Part shown: in pieces, positions 26,615 through 64,000 of the stretch
Layout: every line of letters starts with the position of its first letter
Numbering within the stretch: position 1 is the stretch's first letter
DNA from: Clostridiaceae bacterium
GTDB taxonomy: Bacteria; Bacillota; Clostridia; Clostridiales; Clostridiaceae
Assembly (NCBI GenBank): GCA_902363375.1
Contig: CABIZX010000003.1
Span: 312,097 to 376,096, forward strand
Direction of reading: 5' to 3'
Length of the DNA: 64,000 bases
Program-made: the position numbers and the translations under genes
Notes under the pieces: model-generated
Databases searched by the model: none
Seen by the model: the letters and a program-made list of their open reading frames with translations, nothing else
Told to the model about the DNA's origin: nothing

Positions 26615-26664
26615 AATGACATAATAAATAATTTAATGAATTATTTAAAAACTTAAAATTGAAT

Positions 26665-26830
26665 CATAAGTAGAGGCGCTTATAAATTGGTAGCTGATAA
26701 ATGGTAAGGAGAATACCCTCTGATGTTACAGTGAATTATTTATAAGCCGAAAGGGTACAATGGTATTGTGTGCTGCTTGGGGATAAAGTACAAGTCTTTA
26801 TCACTGCCATTTTATGGAGAGCTATTTATG
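26665..26830 (+). promoter_or_regulatory. Lysine riboswitch (L box) aptamer
   Basis: The conserved blocks of the lysine riboswitch appear in order: TAGAGGCGC at 26671, AAGGAGAATACC, CAGTGAA, AAGCCGAAAGGGT, TGCTGCTTGGGG, CACTGCC and TGGAGAGCTAT near 26814. Helix P1 is CATAAGTAG (26665-26673) with CTATTTATG (26822-26830). It lies between the promoter and the first gene of lysine fermentation, with a terminator after it. Most lysine riboswitches repress biosynthesis or import; upstream of catabolic genes it must turn expression on. Lysine elements ahead of kam genes have been predicted before in Thermoanaerobacter and Fusobacterium. Confidence 0.95.
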
Positions 26831-26877
26831 GAATGAAAAATATTCATTGCATGGGTAGTTCGGTAACTTAGTTATCT

Positions 26878-26985: not shown

Positions 26986-27366
26986 ATGAAATCAATTATC
27001 AGATTAAGAATGAGCTCTCATGATGCACACTACGGTGGAAATCTTGTTGATGGAGCAAGAATGTTACAATTATTTGGAGATGTAGCTACAGAATTATTAA
27101 TTCAAAACGATGGAGACGAAGGATTATTCAAAGCTTATGATAGCGTAGAATTTTTAGCACCTGTATATGCTGGAGATTATATTGAAGCAGTTGGTGAAAT
27201 CGTAAACGTTGGAAACTCATCTAGAAAAATGGTTTTCGAAGCTAGAAAAGTAATAGTACCAAGACCTGATATAAATGATTCAGCTTGTGACGTTTTAGAA
27301 GAACCAATAGTTGTTTGTAAAGCAAGCGGAACATGCGTAGTACCAAAAGATAAGAAGAGAAAATAG
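26986..27366 (+). CDS. kal: 3-aminobutyryl-CoA ammonia-lyase
   Basis: Kal removes ammonia from L-3-aminobutyryl-CoA to give crotonyl-CoA, the last specific step of lysine fermentation. The 126-residue protein is a single hotdog domain ([47 protein letters not shown]), the expected size for Kal. It is the first gene after the riboswitch, and its crotonyl-CoA product feeds the bcd/etf system encoded 14 kb downstream. AGGGGGACG precedes the ATG. Confidence 0.95.
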
Positions 27367-29427: not shown

Positions 29428-30678
29428 ATGAATACAACACGTAGAAAAGAATTATTTCCAAATGTTACAGATGAGCAGTGGAATGACTGGAAATGGCAAA
29501 CTAAAAACAGAATCGAAACTTTAGACGAGTTAAAGAAGTATATTCCATTAACAGCTGAAGAAGAAGAAGGAGCTAAAAAATGTCTAGAAACTTTAAGAAT
29601 GGCTATAACTCCTTACTATCTATCATTAATCGATCCAAGCAATCCTAACGATCCAGTAAGATTACAAGCTATTCCAACAGGACTTGAAGCTCACAAATCT
29701 GCTGCTGACTTAGAGGATCCATTACACGAAGATACAGATTCTCCAGTACCAGGACTAACTCATAGATACCCAGATAGAGTATTACTTCTTATAACTGACC
29801 AATGCTCTATGTACTGCAGACACTGCACAAGAAGAAGATTTGCAGGTCAAAGTGATGACTGCATGCCAATGGAAAGAATAGATAAAGCTATAGATTACAT
29901 TAGCAAAACACCAGTAATCAGAGACGTTCTATTATCAGGTGGAGATGCTTTACTAGTTGACGATTCAGTACTTGAGTACATCATCAGCAAATTAAGAGCT
30001 ATACCACACGTAGAAATAATCAGAATTGGTTCAAGAACACCAGTAGTTATGCCACAAAGAATAACTGATGATCTTGTAAATATGTTAAAGAAATACCACC
30101 CAATCTGGTTAAACACTCACTTTAACCATCCAAATGAAATCACAGAAGAGTCTAAGGCTGCATGTGAGAGAATGGCTAATGCTGGTATACCACTAGGAAA
30201 CCAATCAGTACTTCTAAGAGGAGTAAATGACTGTGTTCACGTAATGAAACAATTAGTTAACGATTTAGTTAAAATAAGAGTTAGACCATACTACATCTAT
30301 CAATGTGACTTATCATTAGGACTAGAGCACTTCAGAACTCCAGTTTCTAAAGGTATCGAAATAATCGAAGGATTAAGAGGTCATACTTCAGGATACTGCG
30401 TACCAACATTCGTTGTTGACGCTCCAGGCGGCGGTGGAAAAACTCCAGTTATGCCAAACTACGTAATTTCTCAAAGCCATGATAAAGTAATACTTAGAAA
30501 CTTTGAAGGAGTTATAACTACTTACTCTGAGCCAACTAACTACACTCCAGGATGTAACTGCGATGTATGTACAGGTAAGAAATCAGTTCATAAAGTTGGA
30601 GTTGCTGGATTATTAAACGGAGAAAAACTTGCTCTAGAGCCAACTGGATTAGAAAGAAACGAAAGACACGCTCACTAG
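29428..30678 (+). CDS. kamA: Lysine 2,3-aminomutase (radical SAM, PLP)
   Basis: KamA converts L-lysine to L-beta-lysine, the first step of the pathway. The 416-residue length equals the C. subterminale enzyme. It has the radical-SAM cluster cysteines C126, C130 and C133 (QCSMYCRHCTRRRF), LLSGGDALLVDD, the PLP-lysine segment APGGGGKTPVMPNY near residue 338 and a C-terminal metal-binding GCNCDVC. It needs PLP, SAM and a 4Fe-4S cluster. AGGGGG precedes the ATG. Codon use is strongly biased as in abundant enzymes. Confidence 0.98.
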   Translation: MNTTRRKELFPNVTDEQWNDWKWQTKNRIETLDELKKYIPLTAEEEEGAKKCLETLRMAITPYYLSLIDPSNPNDPVRLQAIPTGLEAHKSAADLEDPLHEDTDSPVPGLTHRYPDRVLLLITDQCSMYCRHCTRRRFAGQSDDCMPMERIDKAIDYISKTPVIRDVLLSGGDALLVDDSVLEYIISKLRAIPHVEIIRIGSRTPVVMPQRITDDLVNMLKKYHPIWLNTHFNHPNEITEESKAACERMANAGIPLGNQSVLLRGVNDCVHVMKQLVNDLVKIRVRPYYIYQCDLSLGLEHFRTPVSKGIEIIEGLRGHTSGYCVPTFVVDAPGGGGKTPVMPNYVISQSHDKVILRNFEGVITTYSEPTNYTPGCNCDVCTGKKSVHKVGVAGLLNGEKLALEPTGLERNERHAH

Positions 30679-53695: not shown

Positions 53696-53737
53696 AAAAA
53701 AGATTCTCGTGAATTTCATGAGAATCTTTTTTTATTT
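53696..53737 (+). terminator. Terminator after groEL
   Basis: AAAAAGATTCTCGTGAA pairs with TTCATGAGAATCTTTTT around a short loop, with a long T-tract. Confidence 0.93.
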
Positions 53738-54048
53738 ATAACATTAAGAATAAGAGATAATGTAAAGCTATATAATGGATAAATTAATATGGTTTTTAAT
53801 AATACCATATAGCAAAAGTAATAATTAGAATAAAAAATTTATTTTTATCTTTCCTGCATAATTATTAAATAAGCCTAATATAATGATTTAAGATAAATAA
53901 GTATGTGTATCATATTTCTAAAATTTGGTTTAAATGAATATATATAATATTTTTATTTTAAAATATTTCTATAAAAAAAATAATATATTTAGAAACTATG
54001 ATGCAATTTTTTTATTTGGGTACCTGAAAGTTGTTGAGTTAATGGTAC
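53738..54048. other. AT-rich gap upstream of the pel operon
   Basis: I see no gene. There is a hairpin ATATGGT/ACCATAT near 53788-53809 and a more GC-rich block from about 54018 (GGGTACCTGAAAGTTGTTG and on) that runs into the terminator-like hairpin. GTTGT (about 54030) can pair with ACAAC (54047-54051), which overlaps the foot of that hairpin. Confidence 0.4.
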
Positions 54049-54087
54049 AACCGGCTAATTTTTAAATATAATATTAGTCGGTTTTTA
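54049..54087 (+). terminator. Terminator-like hairpin in the pel leader
   Basis: AACCGGCTAAT (54049-54059) pairs with ATTAGTCGGTT (54073-54083), followed by TTTTATT, 40 bases upstream of the pelD-like start. No gene lies between groEL's terminator and this hairpin, so it is probably an attenuator of the pel operon. Confidence 0.65.
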
Positions 54088-54126: not shown

Positions 54127-56253
54127 ATGAAGGTTATGTATATTGGAGGTTACGATGAATTAGCGCAATCATTTATTGAAAGAATGGACAAAGAAGGACA
54201 TGAGGTTTATTTACTATCTGACAACAAGTTTTCAGGGAAGTTTTCTAAGGTTCTAAAATATAAGTACTATAAGTTGTCAGGAAGAACTAATATGACAGAA
54301 ATAGTTTTTTCTTCTGTTTTACCTGAAATTGTTGTATTTGCAGGTATTGATTATATGAATGTTTCTCATATTGGGAGTAAAGAGAAATATCTTAGTACAT
54401 TAGATGATATCTTAGAGCAATGTTCAAAATATAATGTTAGAAAGTTTATTTATCTTTCTTCACATGAAGTATATGGAACTCAATATGGGATCATATCTGA
54501 AGATAATAAAGTTATGCCTGATACTAGTAAAGGTATTATGTGTGCAGAGGGAGAGTACATGGTTTCCCTGTATAAGCAAAAATATAGGTTTCAGAGCATA
54601 ACCATTAGAGGAACAGAGGTTTATAGTGAGAGATGTAGCGATAAAAGTAAGGATTTCTTAAGTAGTTTAATTAGAGACTTAAAATTACAATCAAAAATTA
54701 ATATTGAAAGAGATAAAATTTTACAACCAGTACATGTTTCTGATTATGTGGATGCTATAAAACGAGTAGTGGAATCATGTGATAATGGAATTTATAATGT
54801 TTCAGGAGATTTCGAAATTTCTAAAGAAGAGTTGCTACATTTACTATCTGAAAGCTTTAACATAGAAGTAGATATAAAGTCAGAAGCTGATGTTGAAGTG
54901 AGAAATATCAGTAATGAGAAAATCCATAAAGAATTGGAATGGACAGATTTTAGGGATTTGGCAAAGCTACTTAAGGAAAAGAAAGTTGTCTACGAAGAAG
55001 ATGAAATTAAAGTTTCTAATAAAGAAAATAAAAAAATGCCTTCAGCAATTCGAAGGACCATAGAGAATATTATAGTATTTATGATATTTTTCTTACTATA
55101 TTATATATGTGATTCCCATACATTATTTTCAAAGATTCATTGGCTTTTGATATATGTGGTTCTTATATCTTTATTTATGGGCATCCGTCAAAGTGCAATA
55201 TCTGTTATTTTAGCTAGCTGTGGTTATTTGTTTATGCAAGATATTAGTATATTTGAAATGACTAACTTTTACTCTTATGCAGAATCGATTCTTATGATTA
55301 TTGAATTTGTATTTTTCGGTATTTGTACTAGTTATACTTCAGATATGCTAAAAGAAAATCTTCAAGAAAGTGAGAGAAACTTAAAAACATTTAAGTCTGA
55401 ATATACAGAATTAAAGGAAATTAATAAGGAAAATGTGGCTATAAAAATGGAATATGAAAAGAGAATCTTAGATTCAAAATCAGGATTACCTAAATTATAT
55501 TCAGTTGTAAATAAGTTAATGGTTCTTCAACCAGAGCGCATATTTATGGAAATTCTTAATGTTATATCAGAGACTGTTAATACTAGAACAGTGGCAGTTT
55601 ATATGGTAAACGGAAATAGCTCCTATTTGAGACTTGTAAATGCTTTAAATGTAGAATCAATAATAAGTGGTAAGTCATGGAATTTAGACGATTATCCTAA
55701 AATTAAAGAGGCTATAAAAAATGGAGAATTATATCAAGGAAATACATGGGATAAGGAACCTGCGGTAGTAGTTCCAATTTCTTATGGAGAAAGGTGTATA
55801 GCAGTTATTTTAATTAAATCTTTAGAGTTTGAAAGTCAAACTTTATACCACATTAATCTTCTTAGGACTTTGTCTCTATTGATTACTGAATCAGTTGTAC
55901 GTGCAATTGAATATGAAAATTATACACATGGACAAAGATATATTGAAAACACAGATGTATTAAATAGTAAGGAATTTAAAAGAATCGTTTTATTAGCACA
56001 GGAGAAAAAAGATAAACAATTAGCAGAGTATTGTATTCTTAAGTTAGATAATTTAGGAACATTACAGGAGGTATATGAAAGAGTATCATCTTGCATTAGA
56101 ATGACAGATTATTTTGGAATAGATGATGATGGAAAAGTATATGTATTACTTAACAACACCTCAGAAGAAGATTGTGAGATTGTTCTAAAGAGGCTAGAAG
56201 AAAAAGGTGTTAGGGCTGAACTTATTAGAAATTATGAAGGTATAGGTGATTAA
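54127..56253 (+). CDS. pelD: PelD-like c-di-GMP receptor fused to an N-terminal degenerate SDR domain
   Basis: Residues 1-290 look like an NAD-dependent sugar epimerase (MKVMYIGGYDELAQSF, FIYLSSHEVYG, ITIRGTEVYSE, PVHVSDYVDAI). But the glycine motif is incomplete and the expected YxxxK reads MCAEG, so it is probably inactive. Residues 310-405 hold about four membrane helices, then a coiled stretch, a GAF domain (about 450-590) and a GGDEF-like domain whose active-site stretch reads DDGKV. Five residues before it is R658-M-T-D661, an RxxD I-site. This is the PelD layout, a c-di-GMP receptor rather than a synthase. AAGGGGG lies 9 bases before the ATG. First gene of the operon. Confidence 0.87.
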   Translation: MKVMYIGGYDELAQSFIERMDKEGHEVYLLSDNKFSGKFSKVLKYKYYKLSGRTNMTEIVFSSVLPEIVVFAGIDYMNVSHIGSKEKYLSTLDDILEQCSKYNVRKFIYLSSHEVYGTQYGIISEDNKVMPDTSKGIMCAEGEYMVSLYKQKYRFQSITIRGTEVYSERCSDKSKDFLSSLIRDLKLQSKINIERDKILQPVHVSDYVDAIKRVVESCDNGIYNVSGDFEISKEELLHLLSESFNIEVDIKSEADVEVRNISNEKIHKELEWTDFRDLAKLLKEKKVVYEEDEIKVSNKENKKMPSAIRRTIENIIVFMIFFLLYYICDSHTLFSKIHWLLIYVVLISLFMGIRQSAISVILASCGYLFMQDISIFEMTNFYSYAESILMIIEFVFFGICTSYTSDMLKENLQESERNLKTFKSEYTELKEINKENVAIKMEYEKRILDSKSGLPKLYSVVNKLMVLQPERIFMEILNVISETVNTRTVAVYMVNGNSSYLRLVNALNVESIISGKSWNLDDYPKIKEAIKNGELYQGNTWDKEPAVVVPISYGERCIAVILIKSLEFESQTLYHINLLRTLSLLITESVVRAIEYENYTHGQRYIENTDVLNSKEFKRIVLLAQEKKDKQLAEYCILKLDNLGTLQEVYERVSSCIRMTDYFGIDDDGKVYVLLNNTSEEDCEIVLKRLEEKGVRAELIRNYEGIGD

Positions 56254-56254
56254 T

Positions 56255-57163
56255 ATGGATAAGCTAATATTGATATTACTTATTATAAATATAATCATTT
56301 CTCTAATTTGGTTTATATTGAAGCTAGAAAAGAAACAAGTTGCATGGATGGCATTATTCTTTATTTGTCTTCCGGGGTTAGGATACTTAATTTATTATGT
56401 ACCAAGAATTTTAGAAAAAATTATTTATGAAAATAAATACGATAGGGAATCCCTTGTAAAAAGATTTGACATTGAAAAGTCGCAGGAAAGACCATATTTA
56501 GAGGAAGAGTTAAATGTAGTACCTATAGAAGATGCCATGGTAATAAGTAATAATACAGAAAAAAGAACTCTTTTATTAAATCAGCTTAAAAAAGATATGC
56601 TTAACAGTTATAGATCTTTACTTGTAGCAGAAAATGATGAAGATTCTGAATCAGCTCACTATGTAGCAGCTGCGAAAATGGAAGTATATCGTATGCATCA
56701 ACAAAGATGGAATGAAGTGCTTATAAGATATGAAAGTGATTACAAATCTGTAGAAGTTTTTCATGAGATTATGGAAATACTTGAAGATCTTATTGAAAGT
56801 GAAGTACTTTCACTTAAAGAGAAAAAGTTATATAAGAAAAAATATTGCGAGATTTTGGAAGATCAAATGGAAAATTGTGAGGAAATTATAAAAGCCAAAG
56901 AATATAAAGCTTACCTTACTTATTTAATAGAAGGCGAATCCTACGAAAAAGCTGAGAAGTTTTGGAGTGATAATCATGAATCATCTAAGTGTGAAGAAGG
57001 TTATATGATGATGCTTAGGATGTATTTTGAATGTAATGATAAAGAAAAATTTTATAGATGTATTCATGAACTAGAAGAAAATCAAGCAGTGAGACTTTCA
57101 GCAGATGGACTTGAAAAGCTAAGATACTGGATTTCAAAGGAGGATAGGGATGCTATCAGTTAA
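56255..57163 (+). CDS. pelE: PelE-like membrane/helical-repeat protein
   Basis: The 302-residue protein has two N-terminal membrane helices (about 3-20 and 29-48) and then an all-helical cytoplasmic part with TPR-like pairs (YLTYLIEGESYEKAEKFW, MMLRMYFECNDKEKFYRCIHELEE). PelE in known pel loci has the same layout and assembles with PelD, PelF and PelG. ATG 56255 lies just after the pelD stop; the in-frame GTG at 56246 lies inside the AGGTGAT ribosome binding site. Sequence identity to named PelE proteins cannot be judged here; order and topology carry the call. Confidence 0.75.
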   Translation: MDKLILILLIINIIISLIWFILKLEKKQVAWMALFFICLPGLGYLIYYVPRILEKIIYENKYDRESLVKRFDIEKSQERPYLEEELNVVPIEDAMVISNNTEKRTLLLNQLKKDMLNSYRSLLVAENDEDSESAHYVAAAKMEVYRMHQQRWNEVLIRYESDYKSVEVFHEIMEILEDLIESEVLSLKEKKLYKKKYCEILEDQMENCEEIIKAKEYKAYLTYLIEGESYEKAEKFWSDNHESSKCEEGYMMMLRMYFECNDKEKFYRCIHELEENQAVRLSADGLEKLRYWISKEDRDAIS

Positions 57164-58856
57164 AAGACTGTTATATGTAATTCTTCTTGTTATAACTGTA
57201 AGTGGTGTGTTTATGACTTATAACATCAATGAGGAAAAAACAAAGAAAATTGAAATCTATAATAAAGTTGTAGAAGAAGAGCCCTTAAGTAAAGAAATAA
57301 GTATATCTAAAGAAAAAGAGCCAAAGTTTCTTATTATAGGAAGTAGAAGTAAAGAAATTTATAAAGATATATATATAAATACATGTTTAATAATGTCTGA
57401 TTTAAAACTTTCATATGAAGAAAAAAATAAGATAGAAATTAAAGACTTAAATAATAATACTATTCTCATATTTTGTGATGACGTAGTTAGTAAGTATATA
57501 GATTTAAAGACATTAGGACAATTTATTATTGATGGTGGAAAGGTAATTTTCGCTGGTGGATTAGCAGAAGGAAATGAAGAATCATATTTATATCCTTTTT
57601 TAGGGATTAAAGAAAAAACTATTAAAGAAAACTATAACAATCTTAGATTTGTAAAAGAATTATTTCCAATTCAGTATGAAGAGATGAGATATGGTGGATA
57701 TAATGCTTCAACATGGCTATCAATAAAAAGTGATGCAGAGGTTTATGTGGAGGACGCAAATAAGAAGGTGCCAATTCTATATAGTTACAACTATGAGAAT
57801 GGAGAATCTTTCATAATTAATGGAACTTTCATGGCAGATATAAATTGCGCTGGTATTTTAACAGGAGCTATTGGATCTATAATGGATGATTTTATATATC
57901 CAATAGTTGGAAGTATAAGTGTGTTTTTAGATAACTTTCCCATGGTGACTTATATTAATGATAAAGCATGCATGAAGTTATATGGAAGAAATACTGAATC
58001 TTTCGTTAGAGATACTGTATGGCCAGTTTTTCTTGGAATTTCATTAAGACAAAATATTCCGTATACATCATCGATATTAATTGAATCTTCTAAAGATAAA
58101 AGTTTTCCAGTTATTAATGATAGTTTGTTTAGTACAATAGGAAAATCAGCACTTCAGTATGAAGGGGAGCTTGTATATGGGGCTAACTGTGAAGATGAAA
58201 ATAAAGTTTTCTTAAATAAAGATTTCTTAGAAAAATTTAATCAAATCTTTCCGAGGTATGGTGTTAATGGGCTAGTAATGATGTCTGATGAATTAAATGA
58301 GAATATCATAAATATACCTGATGTAAAAATAAAAAACATACGAGGATATTTAAGTGCTAGAGAAGGTAATGAAAGATTTTATAGCAACTCATCTTACAGT
58401 GTATTTCCAGCAGCCACCTTTGGAAACACATTAGAAGAAGGAAATCTCTTTGAGATTATGTCGGTTATGTCTTCCTATGGAATGATATCTCATGTATTTG
58501 ATATTAATACATTAATAGCAGAAGATGAAGACACCCCATCTTGGGATAGGTATAAAAAACAAATTGGATTATTTGAAGAAAAGGTATTAAGTCCAGCTTC
58601 TTATTTAGAGGGAAAAACTCTTTCACAGATGTCTAATAAAGTTAAGAGTTATGTAAATATGGAATTTGGGTGGAAAAAGGAAGGAAATCGCATTGAAATA
58701 GACTGTAGTAAATTTATAAAGGGACAGACTTTCTTCTATAAGACAAATCATGAAATTGAAAGTGCAGATGGGCTTTCTTTTGAAAAAATCGACAATGGGC
58801 ATTATTTGTTAAAGCTTATAAATGAGCATGCAGTTATAGAGTTGAAAGAGAGGTAA
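57150..58856 (+). CDS. PelA deacetylase-like (DUF2194-like) membrane-anchored protein
   Basis: The 568-residue protein has an N-terminal anchor (residues 6-23), a glutamine-amidotransferase-like alpha/beta part (about 58-245), a polysaccharide-deacetylase-like barrel (about 250-470) and a C-terminal beta domain. It takes the place of the PelA deacetylase of Gram-positive pel loci. The expected metal ligands appear changed: the DD pair reads D261-N262 (FLDNFP), and where a HxxNH-type motif is expected the sequence reads Y343-GAN-C347. H448 (ISHVF) remains. It may be non-catalytic or use other residues. It overlaps pelE by 14 bases. Confidence 0.72.
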   Translation: MLSVKRLLYVILLVITVSGVFMTYNINEEKTKKIEIYNKVVEEEPLSKEISISKEKEPKFLIIGSRSKEIYKDIYINTCLIMSDLKLSYEEKNKIEIKDLNNNTILIFCDDVVSKYIDLKTLGQFIIDGGKVIFAGGLAEGNEESYLYPFLGIKEKTIKENYNNLRFVKELFPIQYEEMRYGGYNASTWLSIKSDAEVYVEDANKKVPILYSYNYENGESFIINGTFMADINCAGILTGAIGSIMDDFIYPIVGSISVFLDNFPMVTYINDKACMKLYGRNTESFVRDTVWPVFLGISLRQNIPYTSSILIESSKDKSFPVINDSLFSTIGKSALQYEGELVYGANCEDENKVFLNKDFLEKFNQIFPRYGVNGLVMMSDELNENIINIPDVKIKNIRGYLSAREGNERFYSNSSYSVFPAATFGNTLEEGNLFEIMSVMSSYGMISHVFDINTLIAEDEDTPSWDRYKKQIGLFEEKVLSPASYLEGKTLSQMSNKVKSYVNMEFGWKKEGNRIEIDCSKFIKGQTFFYKTNHEIESADGLSFEKIDNGHYLLKLINEHAVIELKER

Positions 58857-58860
58857 TGCT

Positions 58861-60297
58861 ATGCGTATATGCATTATATGTGAAGGCTGTTATCCATATG
58901 TACCAGGAGGAGTTTCTAGCTGGATACAGATGATTTGTAATCATTTTTCAGATGTAGAATTTGTTATCTGGGCTATAGCAACTAATAGAAAAGAAATGTC
59001 AGAGTATAAATATAAAGTTCCAGATAATGTGAAAGATATTTCTACAATTTATCTTGGTGAGGAACAGTTTTCTCATAAGTATAAAAAGATTTATTTATCA
59101 ATAGATGAAAAGGAAACTTTAAAGAATCTTGTTGTTGGAGTAGTAAATGAAATTGATTGGGAAAAAACTTTAAAATTTATGAAAAAACATAAGAGGTATC
59201 TAACAGATATTCTTATGAGTGAAGATTTTTATGAAATTTGTCTTGAAGAGTATGAAAGGCAACAATCTAAAAAAGTATTTCAACATTTTCTATGGAATAT
59301 TCGTGGTATGTATTTTCCTCTTATGCATATTTTATCTGATGATATACCTAAGGCGGATATTTATCACTGTGTATCTACGGGTTATGCAGGAATACTTGGA
59401 AGTTGTGCTTCTTATATAAGAAAGAAGCCATTACTTATATCCGAGCATGGAATTTATACCCGTGAACGTGAAGAAGATATCATTCGATCTAATTGGGTAG
59501 AGGGAGATTTCAAAGAGCTATGGATTGAATTTTTTAAAAAGCTTTCTTATATTGCATATAACCAAGCAACGAATGTAACTAGTTTATTTGAAATAAATAA
59601 AATGCTACAAATAGAACTTGGATGTCCAGAAAAAAAGATTTGTATTATTCCTAATGGAATAAACCCTGAGGAGTTCTTAAATCTAAAATCTTATAATAAG
59701 CTAAATTTAAATAAGTTTAATATAGCAGCTGTACTTCGTGTAGTACCTATTAAAGATGTAAAAACTATGATTTTAGCTTTTGATATTGTGAGGGAAAAGA
59801 TGCCAGAAGTTAAATTGAGTATTATGGGAAATCAGGAAGAAAATCCTGAATATTATGAGGAGTGCAGAAAGATGATTGAAGACTTAAAAATTGATGATGT
59901 TGAGTTTTTAGGTCAAGTGAATGTTAAAGAGTATTTTCCAGAAATTGATCTTCTACTTTTATCTAGTATAAGTGAAGGACAGCCTCTAGCTATTTTGGAA
60001 GGTATGGCTGCAGGGATACCAATTGTATCTACTAATGTGGGAGATTGCAAAGGGCTTTTAGAAGGTGAGGATGGAGATAATCTTGGCAGGGCTGGAATAA
60101 TCACCCCTGTAATGAATAGTGAAGCTATGGCAGAAGCAATTATATATTGTATAAAACATCCAAATGAAAGAAAAAGAATGGGTCTTGTTGGACAAAGAAG
60201 AGTAGATACTTACTATAGAAAGGATGTATTTCTTAAAGAATATAGTAAGATATATGAAAAGTTAGGGGGTGACATAAGTGGCAGGTATAGGATTTGA
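58861..60297 (+). CDS. pelF: PelF glycosyltransferase (GT4)
   Basis: PelF is the cytosolic GT-B glycosyltransferase that makes the Pel polymer, in P. aeruginosa from UDP-GalNAc. The 478-residue protein starts with the PelF signature CIICEGCYPYVPGGVSSWI, has HCVSTGYAGILG and LISEHGIYTREREEDI, and the GT4 E-x7-E motif SEGQPLAILEGMAAG. It follows the PelA-like gene by 4 bases and overlaps pelG by 20. Confidence 0.95.
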   Translation: MRICIICEGCYPYVPGGVSSWIQMICNHFSDVEFVIWAIATNRKEMSEYKYKVPDNVKDISTIYLGEEQFSHKYKKIYLSIDEKETLKNLVVGVVNEIDWEKTLKFMKKHKRYLTDILMSEDFYEICLEEYERQQSKKVFQHFLWNIRGMYFPLMHILSDDIPKADIYHCVSTGYAGILGSCASYIRKKPLLISEHGIYTREREEDIIRSNWVEGDFKELWIEFFKKLSYIAYNQATNVTSLFEINKMLQIELGCPEKKICIIPNGINPEEFLNLKSYNKLNLNKFNIAAVLRVVPIKDVKTMILAFDIVREKMPEVKLSIMGNQEENPEYYEECRKMIEDLKIDDVEFLGQVNVKEYFPEIDLLLLSSISEGQPLAILEGMAAGIPIVSTNVGDCKGLLEGEDGDNLGRAGIITPVMNSEAMAEAIIYCIKHPNERKRMGLVGQRRVDTYYRKDVFLKEYSKIYEKLGGDISGRYRI

Positions 60298-61657
60298 ACT
60301 TAGAAAAATATATGAAAGAAAAACTCTAGCATCTAGTGTGTGGGGAAGTATTTATGCGACTATGGCAATTATTGGACCTTCAGTATTATTTGCAATGCTT
60401 TTATTAACATTAAAGTTTTTGATGGATCTTTTTGGGATTGAAGAGTTAAAAAGTATATTTTTTACTTCTTCTTTTACTTATATTTTTTTAATTTCTATAT
60501 TAGTATCTTCTCTGTTTAATACTATATTATCTAGATATATTTCTGACTGTATTTTTGTAAAAAAGGAAGATGATATTTGTGCATCTATGTTTGGGGTCCT
60601 TGCTATGGGAAGCGTTGTATCAGGGATAGTTGTTTTTGTCCTTTGTTTAGGGATGTATTTTAATGATGGAATTCCAATTAAATTTTTAATTGTATATTAC
60701 TGGCTGGGGGTTCTTGCCACAAACACCTATAATTTAATTACTTATGTATCAGCATTAAAGGAATATAAGGAAGTAACAATAAGTTATTTTATAAGTTTGG
60801 TTGTAGCAATTCCAATGTTTTTATTATTATATAAGATATTTAATGTAGAAATTGTATTTGCTGCCTATGTAGCACTATCAATTGGATTTTTCCTTGCCAA
60901 CATACTGCTTGTATATTGTTGTATAAAAGCTTTTGGAAAACCTAGCAATAAATATTTCTCCTTTCTATCATATTTTAAAAGATTTCCTAAGCTTTTACTA
61001 AGTGGCTTTTCATATATGTTGGGATTTTATATTTCAACTATAATTTACTGGATTTTTTCTGATATGAGCACCAAGGTAAGCATTTTTAGGACAGCTCCCG
61101 AGTATGATATGGCTATGTTTATGGCAATTGTTGTGAATATGCCTGCTTTAGTTATATTTGTAGTAAAAGTTGAAACAGAGTTCTTCGATAAATATGTAGC
61201 TTATCTTTCGGCGCTAAACAACGGAGCTTATTCACTTATTGAAAAAGAAAGAAATAACATGATTAATATTATAAGGTTACAATTATTTTATGTTTATGAA
61301 GTCCAATTGATTGTAACAGTTGTACTCATATGTCTTGCAAATGTGTTTTTCCCATATTTAGGTATAAGTGCTCAATCCCTTAATATGTTTATGATTTTAA
61401 GTATGGGATTGTATTGTACATTCTGTATGTATTTTACAGTTATTTTCCTTTATTACTTTGAAGATCATACTTTTGCAGCCATAGGTCCTACTATATTCTT
61501 AGTTTTAACAACAGTACTATCATTGATTTGTTCTGTGATTGGAAAGCCATTTTATACACTTCCTATATTAATTGGAGGAATTATTGGATGGATTATTACT
61601 TATATTTTATTAAAGAAAAGATTAAAAAGTTTAAATATGTTTCTTTTATGCAAATAA
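60278..61657 (+). CDS. pelG: PelG polysaccharide transporter
   Basis: PelG is a MOP-superfamily membrane protein that, with PelD and PelE, moves the Pel chain across the membrane. The 459-residue protein starts with the PelG hallmark MAGIGFELRKIYERKTL and has about 12 membrane helices, with loop FLSYFKRFPKLLLSGFSYML. The start is a GTG at 60278 behind TTAGGGGGTG, inside the end of pelF. With pelF it makes the pel assignment of the cluster secure. Confidence 0.95.
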   Translation: MAGIGFELRKIYERKTLASSVWGSIYATMAIIGPSVLFAMLLLTLKFLMDLFGIEELKSIFFTSSFTYIFLISILVSSLFNTILSRYISDCIFVKKEDDICASMFGVLAMGSVVSGIVVFVLCLGMYFNDGIPIKFLIVYYWLGVLATNTYNLITYVSALKEYKEVTISYFISLVVAIPMFLLLYKIFNVEIVFAAYVALSIGFFLANILLVYCCIKAFGKPSNKYFSFLSYFKRFPKLLLSGFSYMLGFYISTIIYWIFSDMSTKVSIFRTAPEYDMAMFMAIVVNMPALVIFVVKVETEFFDKYVAYLSALNNGAYSLIEKERNNMINIIRLQLFYVYEVQLIVTVVLICLANVFFPYLGISAQSLNMFMILSMGLYCTFCMYFTVIFLYYFEDHTFAAIGPTIFLVLTTVLSLICSVIGKPFYTLPILIGGIIGWIITYILLKKRLKSLNMFLLCK

Positions 61658-61684
61658 AGGTGAAATCAATGGAGGGGAAAAAGT

Positions 61685-63439
61685 GTGAATAAGTGGGAAG
61701 AAAATAATAATAAAATACTATGGATAATTGTATTAGTTGCAGTAATTTTATTTGGAGCTTTATACTTTAAGAATATAACCCCTAAGGAAGAAGCAATTAA
61801 AATACAAAAAACAAACCTTGATGAATGGAATATCAATAGTAGTGATATGAATGGTATTCCAATTAAAGAAGATAAGAGTACTTATTCTGATGAACCAAAT
61901 ACAAATATACATGATGTTTATATTAGTGTTTTTCCAACGAAAACATCAGAAGGAGAGATGAATGACTTTTCTGCTTTTGGAAAGCATACATCAAGGGATC
62001 ATACCTATAATCCAGAATTAAATTGCAATGTTCAGATTTTGAATGAAGGAGAAAGTTTAGATCCATTGACAAGTTTAGATAGTAAAAATGCAACAATTCG
62101 TGTCCGTGGTAATTCATCAAGGGGAGATACTTATAAAAGTTACAAAGTTAAGTTAGATGATGAGGCTGAAAGTTTTTTTGGACAAAGAAATCTTAATATT
62201 AATAAGCACTCTGAGGATATTACAAAGATTGCTACGAAGCTACAGACAGATATATTAGCTTCTGTTGATAATATTACAAGCTATAGAACTTATTTTATGC
62301 GGGTATGGATTAGGGATACCTCTATGCCAAAGGATAAGCAAGAGTTTAAGTATTATGGATTATATACGGAAATTGAACAACCTAATAAAACCTATCTAGA
62401 GACTAGAGGATTAAGTAGTAATACATCTATGTATAAAGCTCGAGATTTTAGCTTTCAAAAGAGTGATGTGTTAAAAGATGTGGATGCTCCAGGTTACGAC
62501 AAAGAAGCCTTTGAGACTATACTTACTATTAGAGAAGCAGATAGTCATAAAAAGTTATTGGAGATGTTAGAGGCTGTCAATGATGAAAGTACAGATTTTG
62601 AAGAAGTATTTAATAAATATTTTAATGAAGATAACTATTTAACTTGGTTAGCCTTCAATCTGCTCATGGGAAATAATGATATTATCAATCATAACTTTAT
62701 TATTTATAATCCAGACAATTCTAATACATGGTATTTTGTCCCTTGGGATTTCGATGGTACCCTTCGCTTTGGTGAGCATGAAAGTAGTTTAATGAAACTA
62801 CCACCATCATTAAAGGGAATTCAAAAGTTAAATCAATCAGTATTGCATAGACGTTATTTTAGGTTAGAAGGAAGCATAGAAAAAATTAAAAATAAGATGG
62901 ATGAACTTCTAAAAGACCATATTACTAGAGACAAGGTTACTGAGCTAATAAACAGCTATAAACCAGTTTTAGAAAAAACTATTACTCAGCAGCCAGATAT
63001 AGGACTTCTAGATAAAATGAATCCTAAGGAGTATTCTCAGTATTTAGATAAGCTATATGAAGGTATTTTAAGTAATTATGAAGCTTTTAATGAAGCTATA
63101 AAATATCCATCACCAATGTATGTATCGCAGCCACAACAAAATGAAGATTCAGTTGTTTTAAGTTGGGAATCGTCTTATTCTTATCAAGGACTACCTGTAA
63201 CTTATAATGTACAAATATTTAATGATTACAATATGAAGAATAAAATTCTAGAAGAAAAAAATATTGCTGAAACAAAATATACCTTAAAGGAGAAATTAGC
63301 ACCAGGAACATATTATCTAAGAGTAACAGCAGTAGATAGCAAGGACCATGAACAACTTAGTATGGAAAGGTTTGAAACTATGATTACAGATGTTAAAGGA
63401 TACAATGTAAATGGTCTTTTAGAAATTAAGATTAAGTAG
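61685..63439 (+). CDS. CotH-type kinase family protein, membrane-anchored
   Basis: The 584-residue protein has an N-terminal membrane anchor (residues 12-30), then a CotH kinase-like domain (about 75-450) with [35 protein letters not shown] and the metal-binding FVPWDFDGTLRFG. The C-terminal 90 residues look like a fibronectin-III-type beta domain (YVSQPQQNEDSVVLSWESSY). CotH proteins are atypical secreted or cell-surface kinases. GTG 61685 follows GGAGGGG. It is encoded 27 bases after pelG, so it belongs to the operon. It may modify surface proteins or the polymer; the target is unknown. Confidence 0.85.
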   Translation: MNKWEENNNKILWIIVLVAVILFGALYFKNITPKEEAIKIQKTNLDEWNINSSDMNGIPIKEDKSTYSDEPNTNIHDVYISVFPTKTSEGEMNDFSAFGKHTSRDHTYNPELNCNVQILNEGESLDPLTSLDSKNATIRVRGNSSRGDTYKSYKVKLDDEAESFFGQRNLNINKHSEDITKIATKLQTDILASVDNITSYRTYFMRVWIRDTSMPKDKQEFKYYGLYTEIEQPNKTYLETRGLSSNTSMYKARDFSFQKSDVLKDVDAPGYDKEAFETILTIREADSHKKLLEMLEAVNDESTDFEEVFNKYFNEDNYLTWLAFNLLMGNNDIINHNFIIYNPDNSNTWYFVPWDFDGTLRFGEHESSLMKLPPSLKGIQKLNQSVLHRRYFRLEGSIEKIKNKMDELLKDHITRDKVTELINSYKPVLEKTITQQPDIGLLDKMNPKEYSQYLDKLYEGILSNYEAFNEAIKYPSPMYVSQPQQNEDSVVLSWESSYSYQGLPVTYNVQIFNDYNMKNKILEEKNIAETKYTLKEKLAPGTYYLRVTAVDSKDHEQLSMERFETMITDVKGYNVNGLLEIKIK

Positions 63440-63447
63440 GTGAGTTA

Positions 63448-64000
63448 ATGCAGTACAAAGGAAATATGCTTAGACATGAAATGAAATATTATATTAATAA
63501 AAGTGTTTATCATACCTTGAGAAATAGACTTAAAACTGTGATTTTTATAGATCCCAATATGAAGAGGGAAGAGGGTTATTTAGTTAGCAGTTTATACTTT
63601 GATGATATGTATCAATCAGCCCTTGAAGAGAAGCAATCAGGAATTCGCTTTAGAAAGAAGTTTAGAATTCGCTGTTATGATTTAGAGGATAAATATATAA
63701 AATTAGAATGCAAGAAAAAGTATCATGAATTCATATCAAAAATTAGTGCACCTCTTACAAGAGCTGAATATGATTGTATTTTATCTGGAAATTATGAATT
63801 CTTAGGACATAGAAAAGAGCAAGTATGTAAAGAACTTCTTGCATACAATAGAATTAGACTTATGAAGCCAAAGGTAGTAGTAGAATATATGCGTGAAGCT
63901 TATGTTCTACCTACTGGAAATGTAAGAATTACCTTTGATAAGGATATAGCTGCATCTATAGGTAATTACAATATGTTTTCTAAAGATTATATAACGAGAA
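63448..64000 (+). CDS. VTC-domain protein (polyphosphate polymerase-like), cut by window end
   Basis: From the ATG at 63448 (AGGTGAG upstream) 184 codons are open to the edge. The start MLRHEMKYYINKSVYHTLRN, then SSLYFDDMYQSALEEKQSG, IRFRKKFRIRCYD, IKLECKKKYHEFISK and KVVVEYMREAY match the VTC tunnel domain, with its basic residues for polyphosphate and nucleotide binding. In other bacteria VTC, CotH and DUF4956 genes often travel together, so a DUF4956 gene may follow outside the window. Polyphosphate synthesis is the family function; its link to Pel is inferred from the operon. Confidence 0.88.
   Translation, partial: MQYKGNMLRHEMKYYINKSVYHTLRNRLKTVIFIDPNMKREEGYLVSSLYFDDMYQSALEEKQSGIRFRKKFRIRCYDLEDKYIKLECKKKYHEFISKISAPLTRAEYDCILSGNYEFLGHRKEQVCKELLAYNRIRLMKPKVVVEYMREAYVLPTGNVRITFDKDIAASIGNYNMFSKDYITR

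Follow-up and report, generated by a model that had tools for sequence, protein, structure and literature searches.

The question raised by the 64,000-nucleotide stretch of Clostridiaceae DNA analysed here (GenBank assembly GCA_902363375.1, contig CABIZX010000003.1, positions 312,097 to 376,096; hereafter the window) is why an operon for the exopolysaccharide Pel should run on into genes for a CotH-family kinase and a VTC-type polyphosphate polymerase. The operon lies on the forward strand at positions 54127–64000, its last gene being still open at the end of the window, and is best explained, with a confidence slightly better than even, as a cyclic diguanosine monophosphate (c-di-GMP)-controlled Pel operon of a Clostridium-like bacterium carrying a portable CotH-VTC-DUF4956 module. 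Unseen by the first-pass annotation of the window were a riboswitch at 53982–54065, the DUF4956 and, often, DUF4832 genes of relatives, which would here lie past the window end, and the fact that the module is not specific to Pel. The riboswitch and the wide range of the module are new, as is the correction of the module's supposed absence outside Pel.

Organisation of the operon

Seven open reading frames, in the order pelD, pelE, pelA-like (deacetylase), pelF, pelG, cotH and VTC, follow one another on the forward strand with intergenic gaps of −8, −14, 4, −20, 27 and 8 bases, and family matches bore out the close-packed run described by the first-pass annotation. The glycosyltransferase family 4 (GT4) polymerase PelF (58861–60297) was matched by NCBIfam NF038011 (387 bits; cut-off, 100) and by DUF3492 (1.5e-77), the exopolysaccharide transporter PelG (60278–61657) by Pfam PF16933 (4.7e-100), and the deacetylase-type PelA, a DUF2194 protein (57150–58856), by Pfam PF09960 (1.7e-35). 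PelD (54127–56253, 708 amino acids) comprises an N-terminal short-chain dehydrogenase/reductase (SDR)/epimerase-like domain, a membrane segment (weak DUF4118 match), a weak GAF match and a C-terminal RxxD motif (RMTD) with an arginine at +31, and the PelE-like protein (56246–57163) reached no Pfam family above cut-off. Both names were given by position and from relatives, in the case of PelE through a profile built from these, neither protein having a curated family match of its own. PelF and PelG occur together with PelD, PelE and the deacetylase-type PelA in order ahead of them, as in a Gram-positive Pel operon, and neither pelB nor pelC is among the operon's genes, as had been claimed; judged from its genes, the operon would make a putative N-acetylgalactosamine-rich Pel. 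The guanine plus cytosine content of the window, 31%, makes a Clostridium-like host likely, and the nearest named relative of the window CotH, 86% identical, belongs to a Clostridium sp.

Extension of the operon by genes for a CotH-family protein (61685–63439; Pfam CotH, 1.3e-49, with a C-terminal fn3 match at 1.4e-5) and a VTC-domain protein of the polyphosphate polymerase type (63448–64000; Pfam VTC, 1.2e-28; 184 amino acids visible, the 3' part lying past the window end) was likewise upheld. The genes found 3' of VTC in related loci encode DUF4956 and often DUF4832 (both in L001, L004, L005 and L006; L003 is without DUF4832), and by analogy with these relatives the DUF4956 gene of the present operon would sit beyond the end of the window.

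The RMTD motif and the arginine 31 residues on are common to the PelD proteins of the window and of loci L001, L003, L005 and L006, that of L002 having lysine at the last of these places; the residues R363, D366 and R395 of Bacillus cereus PelD are required for c-di-GMP binding (PMC7112168). Streptococcal PelD is described in the same account as being without a GGDEF domain, in comparison with which the window PelD keeps the RxxD motif and is preceded by a leader with a c-di-GMP aptamer. At L094 (32–1691, genome G060) pelD is present as two open frames, for which a broken gene or a sequencing error are both possible.

A c-di-GMP-II riboswitch in the pelD leader

The pelD leader contains a c-di-GMP-II riboswitch aptamer (53982–54065, forward strand), matched over the full Rfam RF01786 model (1–84) at 68.9 bits (gathering threshold 53.5; E = 2.3e-13) and ending 61 bases before the pelD start. 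The probable expression platform is a terminator-like hairpin at 54049–54083 (forward strand), with an 11-pair stem of −12.6 kcal/mol (z = −3.7 versus 200 shuffles) and a T-rich sequence after it, which did not figure among the results of a consensus terminator scan whose loop limit is 8. Since the 5' arm of this hairpin overlaps the 3' strand of the aptamer and a T-rich stretch follows, ligand binding should prevent termination, the arrangement being that of a predicted ON switch, and the operon is therefore probably switched on by c-di-GMP at the RNA level. That the operon as a whole is under c-di-GMP control, with putative binding and switching of this leader, is considered very probable. 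A further terminator-like hairpin behind groEL (53696–53732) divides the operon from the preceding gene; a promoter scan returned fewer sites than shuffled sequence and was not used.

The core genes, the SDR-bearing PelD and the placement of the CotH and polymerase genes are the same in the window as in the Gram-positive pel operon of PMC7112168, and the c-di-GMP-II riboswitch ahead of pelD is the point at which the window departs from that account. No report of a c-di-GMP riboswitch ahead of a Gram-positive pel operon was found by titles and abstract starts in the open-access literature, and the word 'riboswitch' is absent from the main texts of PMC7112168 and PMC12345266. Relative to published accounts of Gram-positive Pel the riboswitch is thus new, and through it the system gains a likely input from c-di-GMP at the RNA level.

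The accessory module in Pel loci

CotH, polyphosphate polymerase, DUF4956 and DUF4832 genes contiguous with pelDEAFG were reported from streptococci and clostridia by Whitfield and colleagues in 2020 (PMC7112168), and in 2025 every gene of the corresponding Streptococcus intermedius cluster was deleted, aggregation being found to require pelDEAFG (PMC12345266); the earlier statement that no characterised Pel system has CotH and VTC consequently does not stand. The S. intermedius cluster with SIR_1591–1594, in which genes for a CotH-fn3 protein, a polyphosphate polymerase domain and an MgtC-ACT membrane protein come after pelDEAFG, is a closely similar published arrangement, and the MgtC-ACT protein is read here as DUF4956.

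The suggestion that pelFG co-occurs with CotH and VTC across clostridia was confirmed by a survey of 391 Clostridia genomes, in which PelG was matched over cut-off 15 times and followed by the full CotH-VTC-DUF4956 set in eight instances (G001, G060, G026, G141, G367, G280, G295 and G227). The locus of G114 looks split, its contig ending inside CotH and another contig beginning with a CotH remainder, VTC and DUF4956, while contigs ending just after pelG in G016 and G385 mean that the presence of the module cannot be told. G016 was considered as a contig-split Pel module on account of a weak CotH match (E = 1.1e-5) at the contig end behind pelG; on the contig with VTC, however, this gene is followed by the front part of a CotH, and the two need not be one locus. 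The module is absent from the remaining four loci (G206, G341, G188 and G226), in which about 10 kb downstream is visible, so Pel does not need it; within Pel the module is common but optional. The published correlation between SDR-bearing PelD and the accessory genes did not hold strictly, since G206 and G188 have SDR-bearing PelD without CotH and VTC. Second CotH genes follow DUF4956 at L094 and L111. The genome of G004 has two Pel-like systems, a divergent pel-like locus with CotH-VTC-DUF4956 (L019) and L006, together with two further VTC loci.

A quick tree of VTC sequences (108 rows, with SH-aLRT, an approximate likelihood ratio test, as the sole support measure; rows below 170 residues and L020 left out; L115, discussed below, counted as pel) splits with a support of 96 into sets of 47 and 61 rows. 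The smaller set holds 22 rows linked to the carbohydrate-binding protein Cthe_2159, 20 others and five linked to CotH; the larger holds all 15 pel-linked rows, all eight of the NELoc-2 type, 25 of 30 other CotH-linked rows, three Cthe_2159-linked and 10 others. Within the CotH group the pel-linked rows are scattered over several patches and need four changes on the tree, at least two of them forced by starred branches; on this quick tree it appears that either Pel and the CotH-type module came together repeatedly or the module was lost in between.

The module outside Pel

To place the module in a wider setting, 148 draft Clostridia genomes were surveyed, VTC being matched 96 times in 76 of them; flanks of up to 9 kb each were taken for 94 of these loci, L005 and L015 completing the 96, and many were cut by contig ends. 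Neighbours were matched with profiles built in this analysis and counted as near when within 3.5 kb on the same strand. DUF4956 was near 86 of the 96 VTC matches and within 200 bases in 85 (at L112 the distance is 1.8 kb). Among the ten VTC genes without it, four lie where the contig ends next to VTC (L084, L127, L144 and L145), five are partial VTC matches (L138, L143, L146, L147 and L148), and one is full-length (L092). The VTC-DUF4956 pairing is thus near-fixed in the sampled Clostridia, and the module is present without pel genes; titles and abstract starts in the open-access literature revealed no treatment of the two as a pair.

CotH was near 40 of the 96 VTC matches, four of them beside pelG, seven in a NELoc-2-type cluster and 29 in other settings, whereas Cthe_2159 (Pfam matches of 6.7e-62 and 1.6e-49 for two of the proteins) was near 25 of the 56 VTC genes without CotH and none of the 40 with it. 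The complete VTC-DUF4956-CotH triple was found 39 times, four beside pelG and 35 not; for 21 of the 35 the sequence extends 8 kb or more in either direction. The number of non-pel triples falls to 34 when L115, probably the latter half of a pel locus split between contigs, is set aside, and some of those with shorter flanks could be cut Pel loci too; at L108 there is one weak PelE-like match (19 bits) on the opposite strand. The Pel-like order CotH-VTC-DUF4956 occurs without pelG at L055, L059, L085, L088 and L102, and again on a Pseudobutyrivibrio plasmid (L022) with glycosyltransferase family 2 (GT2), GT4, acyltransferase and pyruvyltransferase genes, where the PelF profile touches the GT4 gene and the locus profiles gave no PelD, PelE, PelA or PelG match. 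VTC, DUF4956 and CotH lie side by side in Nonomuraea (L025), and on a Planococcus plasmid (L023) VTC-DUF4956-CotH is accompanied by genes for a 689-amino-acid protein, a HEAT protein and a GT2 synthase. A GT2 synthase accompanies the module at L023, L083, L086, L093, L096, L103 and L112, L131 being cut before that gene; for most CotH-VTC loci of the sample no synthase was identified.

The L023 arrangement has a published likeness in the NELoc-2 locus of Clostridium perfringens, known here from a table in PMC2879425: both unite VTC, a partner of 222–226 amino acids and CotH in one cluster, and both differ from the window in having no pel genes and, instead, a 685–690-amino-acid protein, a HEAT protein and a GT2 synthase. 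The NELoc-2 partner tabulated as 'tubulin/FtsZ' would correspond to the DUF4956 protein of L023. The available text of PMC12345266 states that no case of the three genes so arranged was found away from the Pel locus; the non-Pel triples contradict that statement, at least as worded, and it is corrected accordingly. The question therefore shifts from the reason for a kinase gene and a polyphosphate gene in Pel to the role of a widespread VTC-DUF4956 module at the bacterial surface, for which the non-Pel systems are places where that role can be examined.

Three further groupings were encountered. At L061, L015 and 23 other loci VTC-DUF4956 lies within 1 kb of a Cthe_2159 protein gene, seven of the 25 having a histidine kinase and response regulator within 6 kb; these Cthe_2159-linked loci form a second large class for which no published role was seen. 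At L140–L142, whose VTC rows sit on a long tree branch, VTC-DUF4956 shares a cluster with a DUF6382-FHA protein, and at L020 (824–3139, reverse strand) the VTC domain is C-terminal in a frame of 771 amino acids, about 540 residues ahead of it being without a Pfam family.

The riboswitch scan was extended to other loci, adjacency being checked directly for those scanned. Of the 21 pel stretches, window included, 16 take in sequence ahead of the first pel gene; an aptamer precedes pelD in three of these: the class II aptamer of the window and class I aptamers at L160 and L168, the last a pel locus without the accessory module. For the 23 scanned non-Pel modules, a class I aptamer stands directly before VTC in three (L083, L086 and L112), all of the NELoc-2 type (three of eight of that type) and two of them, L083 and L086, near copies; the chance expectation for such a placement across 96 VTC genes is roughly 0.008, assuming a mean genome size of 2.7 Mb. 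Among the matches listed, c-di-GMP-I riboswitches occur in 66 of the 148 genomes and c-di-GMP-II in 17 (14 over cut-off). Aptamers of two unrelated classes stand ahead of two likewise unrelated synthase systems, both with the module, and no other observation hints more strongly at its serving polymers under c-di-GMP control.

Properties of the CotH, VTC and DUF4956 proteins

The window CotH, a putative kinase, aligned with the B. cereus CotH structure 5jd9 (E = 6e-12) and has both D332 and D355, which we take to be the active-site aspartates and which are kept in 53 of 53 and 51 of 51 rows having a letter at the respective columns. Its hydrophobic N-terminus is a probable anchor, which would place the kinase domain outside the cell.

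A profile of VTC relatives found yeast Vtc4 first (3g3q, 8.5e-18), followed by Vtc2 (2.7e-9) and Vtc3 (6.4e-6), the domain being homologous to the Vtc4 polymerase domain. Within the 15 columns checked from R9 to D164, R9, E11, K13, K71, R73, R75, E87, K89, K91, K98, Y147, R149, R160 and D164 are kept in all 15 pel-linked rows and D52 in 14; E195, K197, S221 and K222, judged in the relatives since the window row ends before them, are kept in 14 of 14. These include the active-site basic and acidic residues, some of them corresponding by position to yeast K200, R264, R266 and K281, and the window VTC is accordingly regarded as a putative polyphosphate polymerase that would synthesise the chain. 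Like the yeast VTC complex, in which Vtc4 works with Vtc1 to Vtc3, the bacterial system has a homologous polymerase domain with its active-site residues kept and an adjoining membrane partner; unlike it, the relatives, at 236 amino acids, are without an SPX domain, the partner is MgtC/DUF4956-like and the polymerase is putative. The possibility that VTC stands in for PPK1 was rejected: PPK1 is present in 28 of the 76 VTC genomes versus 46 of 148 overall, and VTC therefore does not replace it.

The predicted structure of DUF4956 has five helices and, at its C-terminus, an ACT-like domain of the kind present in MgtC (mean predicted local distance difference test score of 76 for the whole and 79 for the helical part), with G96, R102, R104 and G123 invariant in 52 rows; its profile found no PDB chain at E ≤ 5. 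Pairwise distances of VTC correlate with those of DUF4956 (r = 0.90, 102 loci) and of CotH (r = 0.78, 52 loci).

Possible roles of the module

At high c-di-GMP, transcription would read past the leader hairpin and PelD would also be activated; synthesis and export of the polymer would fall to PelF, PelG and PelE, and its deacetylation outside to the DUF2194 protein. Less certainly, VTC may make polyphosphate on the cytosolic face beside DUF4956, which may anchor VTC or pass the chain outward, while the CotH kinase outside may phosphorylate the polymer or proteins bound to it, the module thereby tuning the charge and cohesion of the matrix. That the module acts on a surface polymer in a phosphate-dependent way is thought fairly probable; that polyphosphate is exported and used outside is rather unlikely. 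An unlikely extension would make VTC and DUF4956 a bacterial polyphosphate synthase exporting its chain, with CotH using polyphosphate as donor and so making up for the absence of extracellular ATP, and with the module plugged into Pel, GT2-synthase and other surface systems, some under two unrelated c-di-GMP riboswitch classes; exported polyphosphate could then also cross-link the matrix of the positively charged Pel, as DNA does. If polyphosphate export were true, the yeast VTC complex would have a bacterial counterpart in the pair, and the phosphate supply of outside kinases would be accounted for.

A number of results weigh against the favoured explanation of a c-di-GMP-controlled Pel operon with a portable module. 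No c-di-GMP riboswitch over the Rfam threshold was found in 13 of the 16 pel stretches reaching upstream, nor in 20 of the 23 scanned non-Pel modules, and four PelG loci manage without the module altogether. The open-access literature yielded, by title, no report of the activity of a bacterial VTC enzyme; a fold comparison of the DUF4956 membrane part, itself uninformative, gave no known channel or Vtc1 among the matches listed; and the distance correlations are also expected for any two co-inherited genes. In the available text of PMC12345266 the S. intermedius polymerase mutant aggregates and has Pel, no change being told, and the other two mutants, both with less aggregation in sputum medium, shift the Pel level oppositely, that of CotH having less Pel and that of MgtC-ACT more.

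These mutants bear also on a possible, if doubtful, alternative, namely that CotH phosphorylates Pel-machinery or surface proteins and thereby regulates synthesis, VTC-DUF4956 being a cytosolic phosphate or energy sensor or buffer with no exported product. Regulation by protein phosphorylation was proposed in PMC7112168, and the diminished Pel of the CotH mutant agrees with it; likewise the ACT-like domain of DUF4956 closely resembles the C-terminus of MgtC, a protein that is tied to phosphate control, and the polymerase mutant has no told phenotype (PMC12345266). The CotH domain is, however, behind a hydrophobic N-terminus, which would put it away from the cytosolic synthase, its streptococcal counterpart being called secreted (PMC12345266), and a cytosolic buffer leaves unexplained the partners expected to act outside, CotH near 40 of 96 VTC genes and Cthe_2159 near 25 of the 56 others.

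CotH might instead be a glycan kinase placing phosphate on polymer hydroxyls, with VTC-DUF4956 supplying the donor, a reading that we also think unlikely. Fam20B and POMK, secretory kinases, phosphorylate sugars; the CotH aspartates are kept; and since the same module accompanies both Pel and the GT2 synthase of the seven loci listed above, the shared target could be a polysaccharide. The CotH substrates known to us are, however, proteins, most CotH-VTC loci are without an identified synthase, and phosphate on Pel is not told in the available parts of the published accounts. It is highly improbable that the genes are passengers, a common clostridial cluster inserted behind pelG and kept by linkage with no role in Pel: the module is indeed widespread without Pel, and absent from four of 15 PelG loci, but short gaps or overlaps join it to pelG in several loci, the full set recurs at eight of 15, the pel-linked VTCs do not form one lineage on the quick tree but occupy several patches of the CotH group, and deletions in S. 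intermedius have phenotypes (PMC12345266).

A lysine riboswitch elsewhere in the window

Apart from the operon, a lysine riboswitch was recognised at 26663–26832 (forward strand, 60.8 bits) before genes for a thioesterase-like protein (26986–27366) and lysine-2,3-aminomutase (29428–30678), the aptamer thus heading genes of apparent lysine breakdown rather than synthesis.

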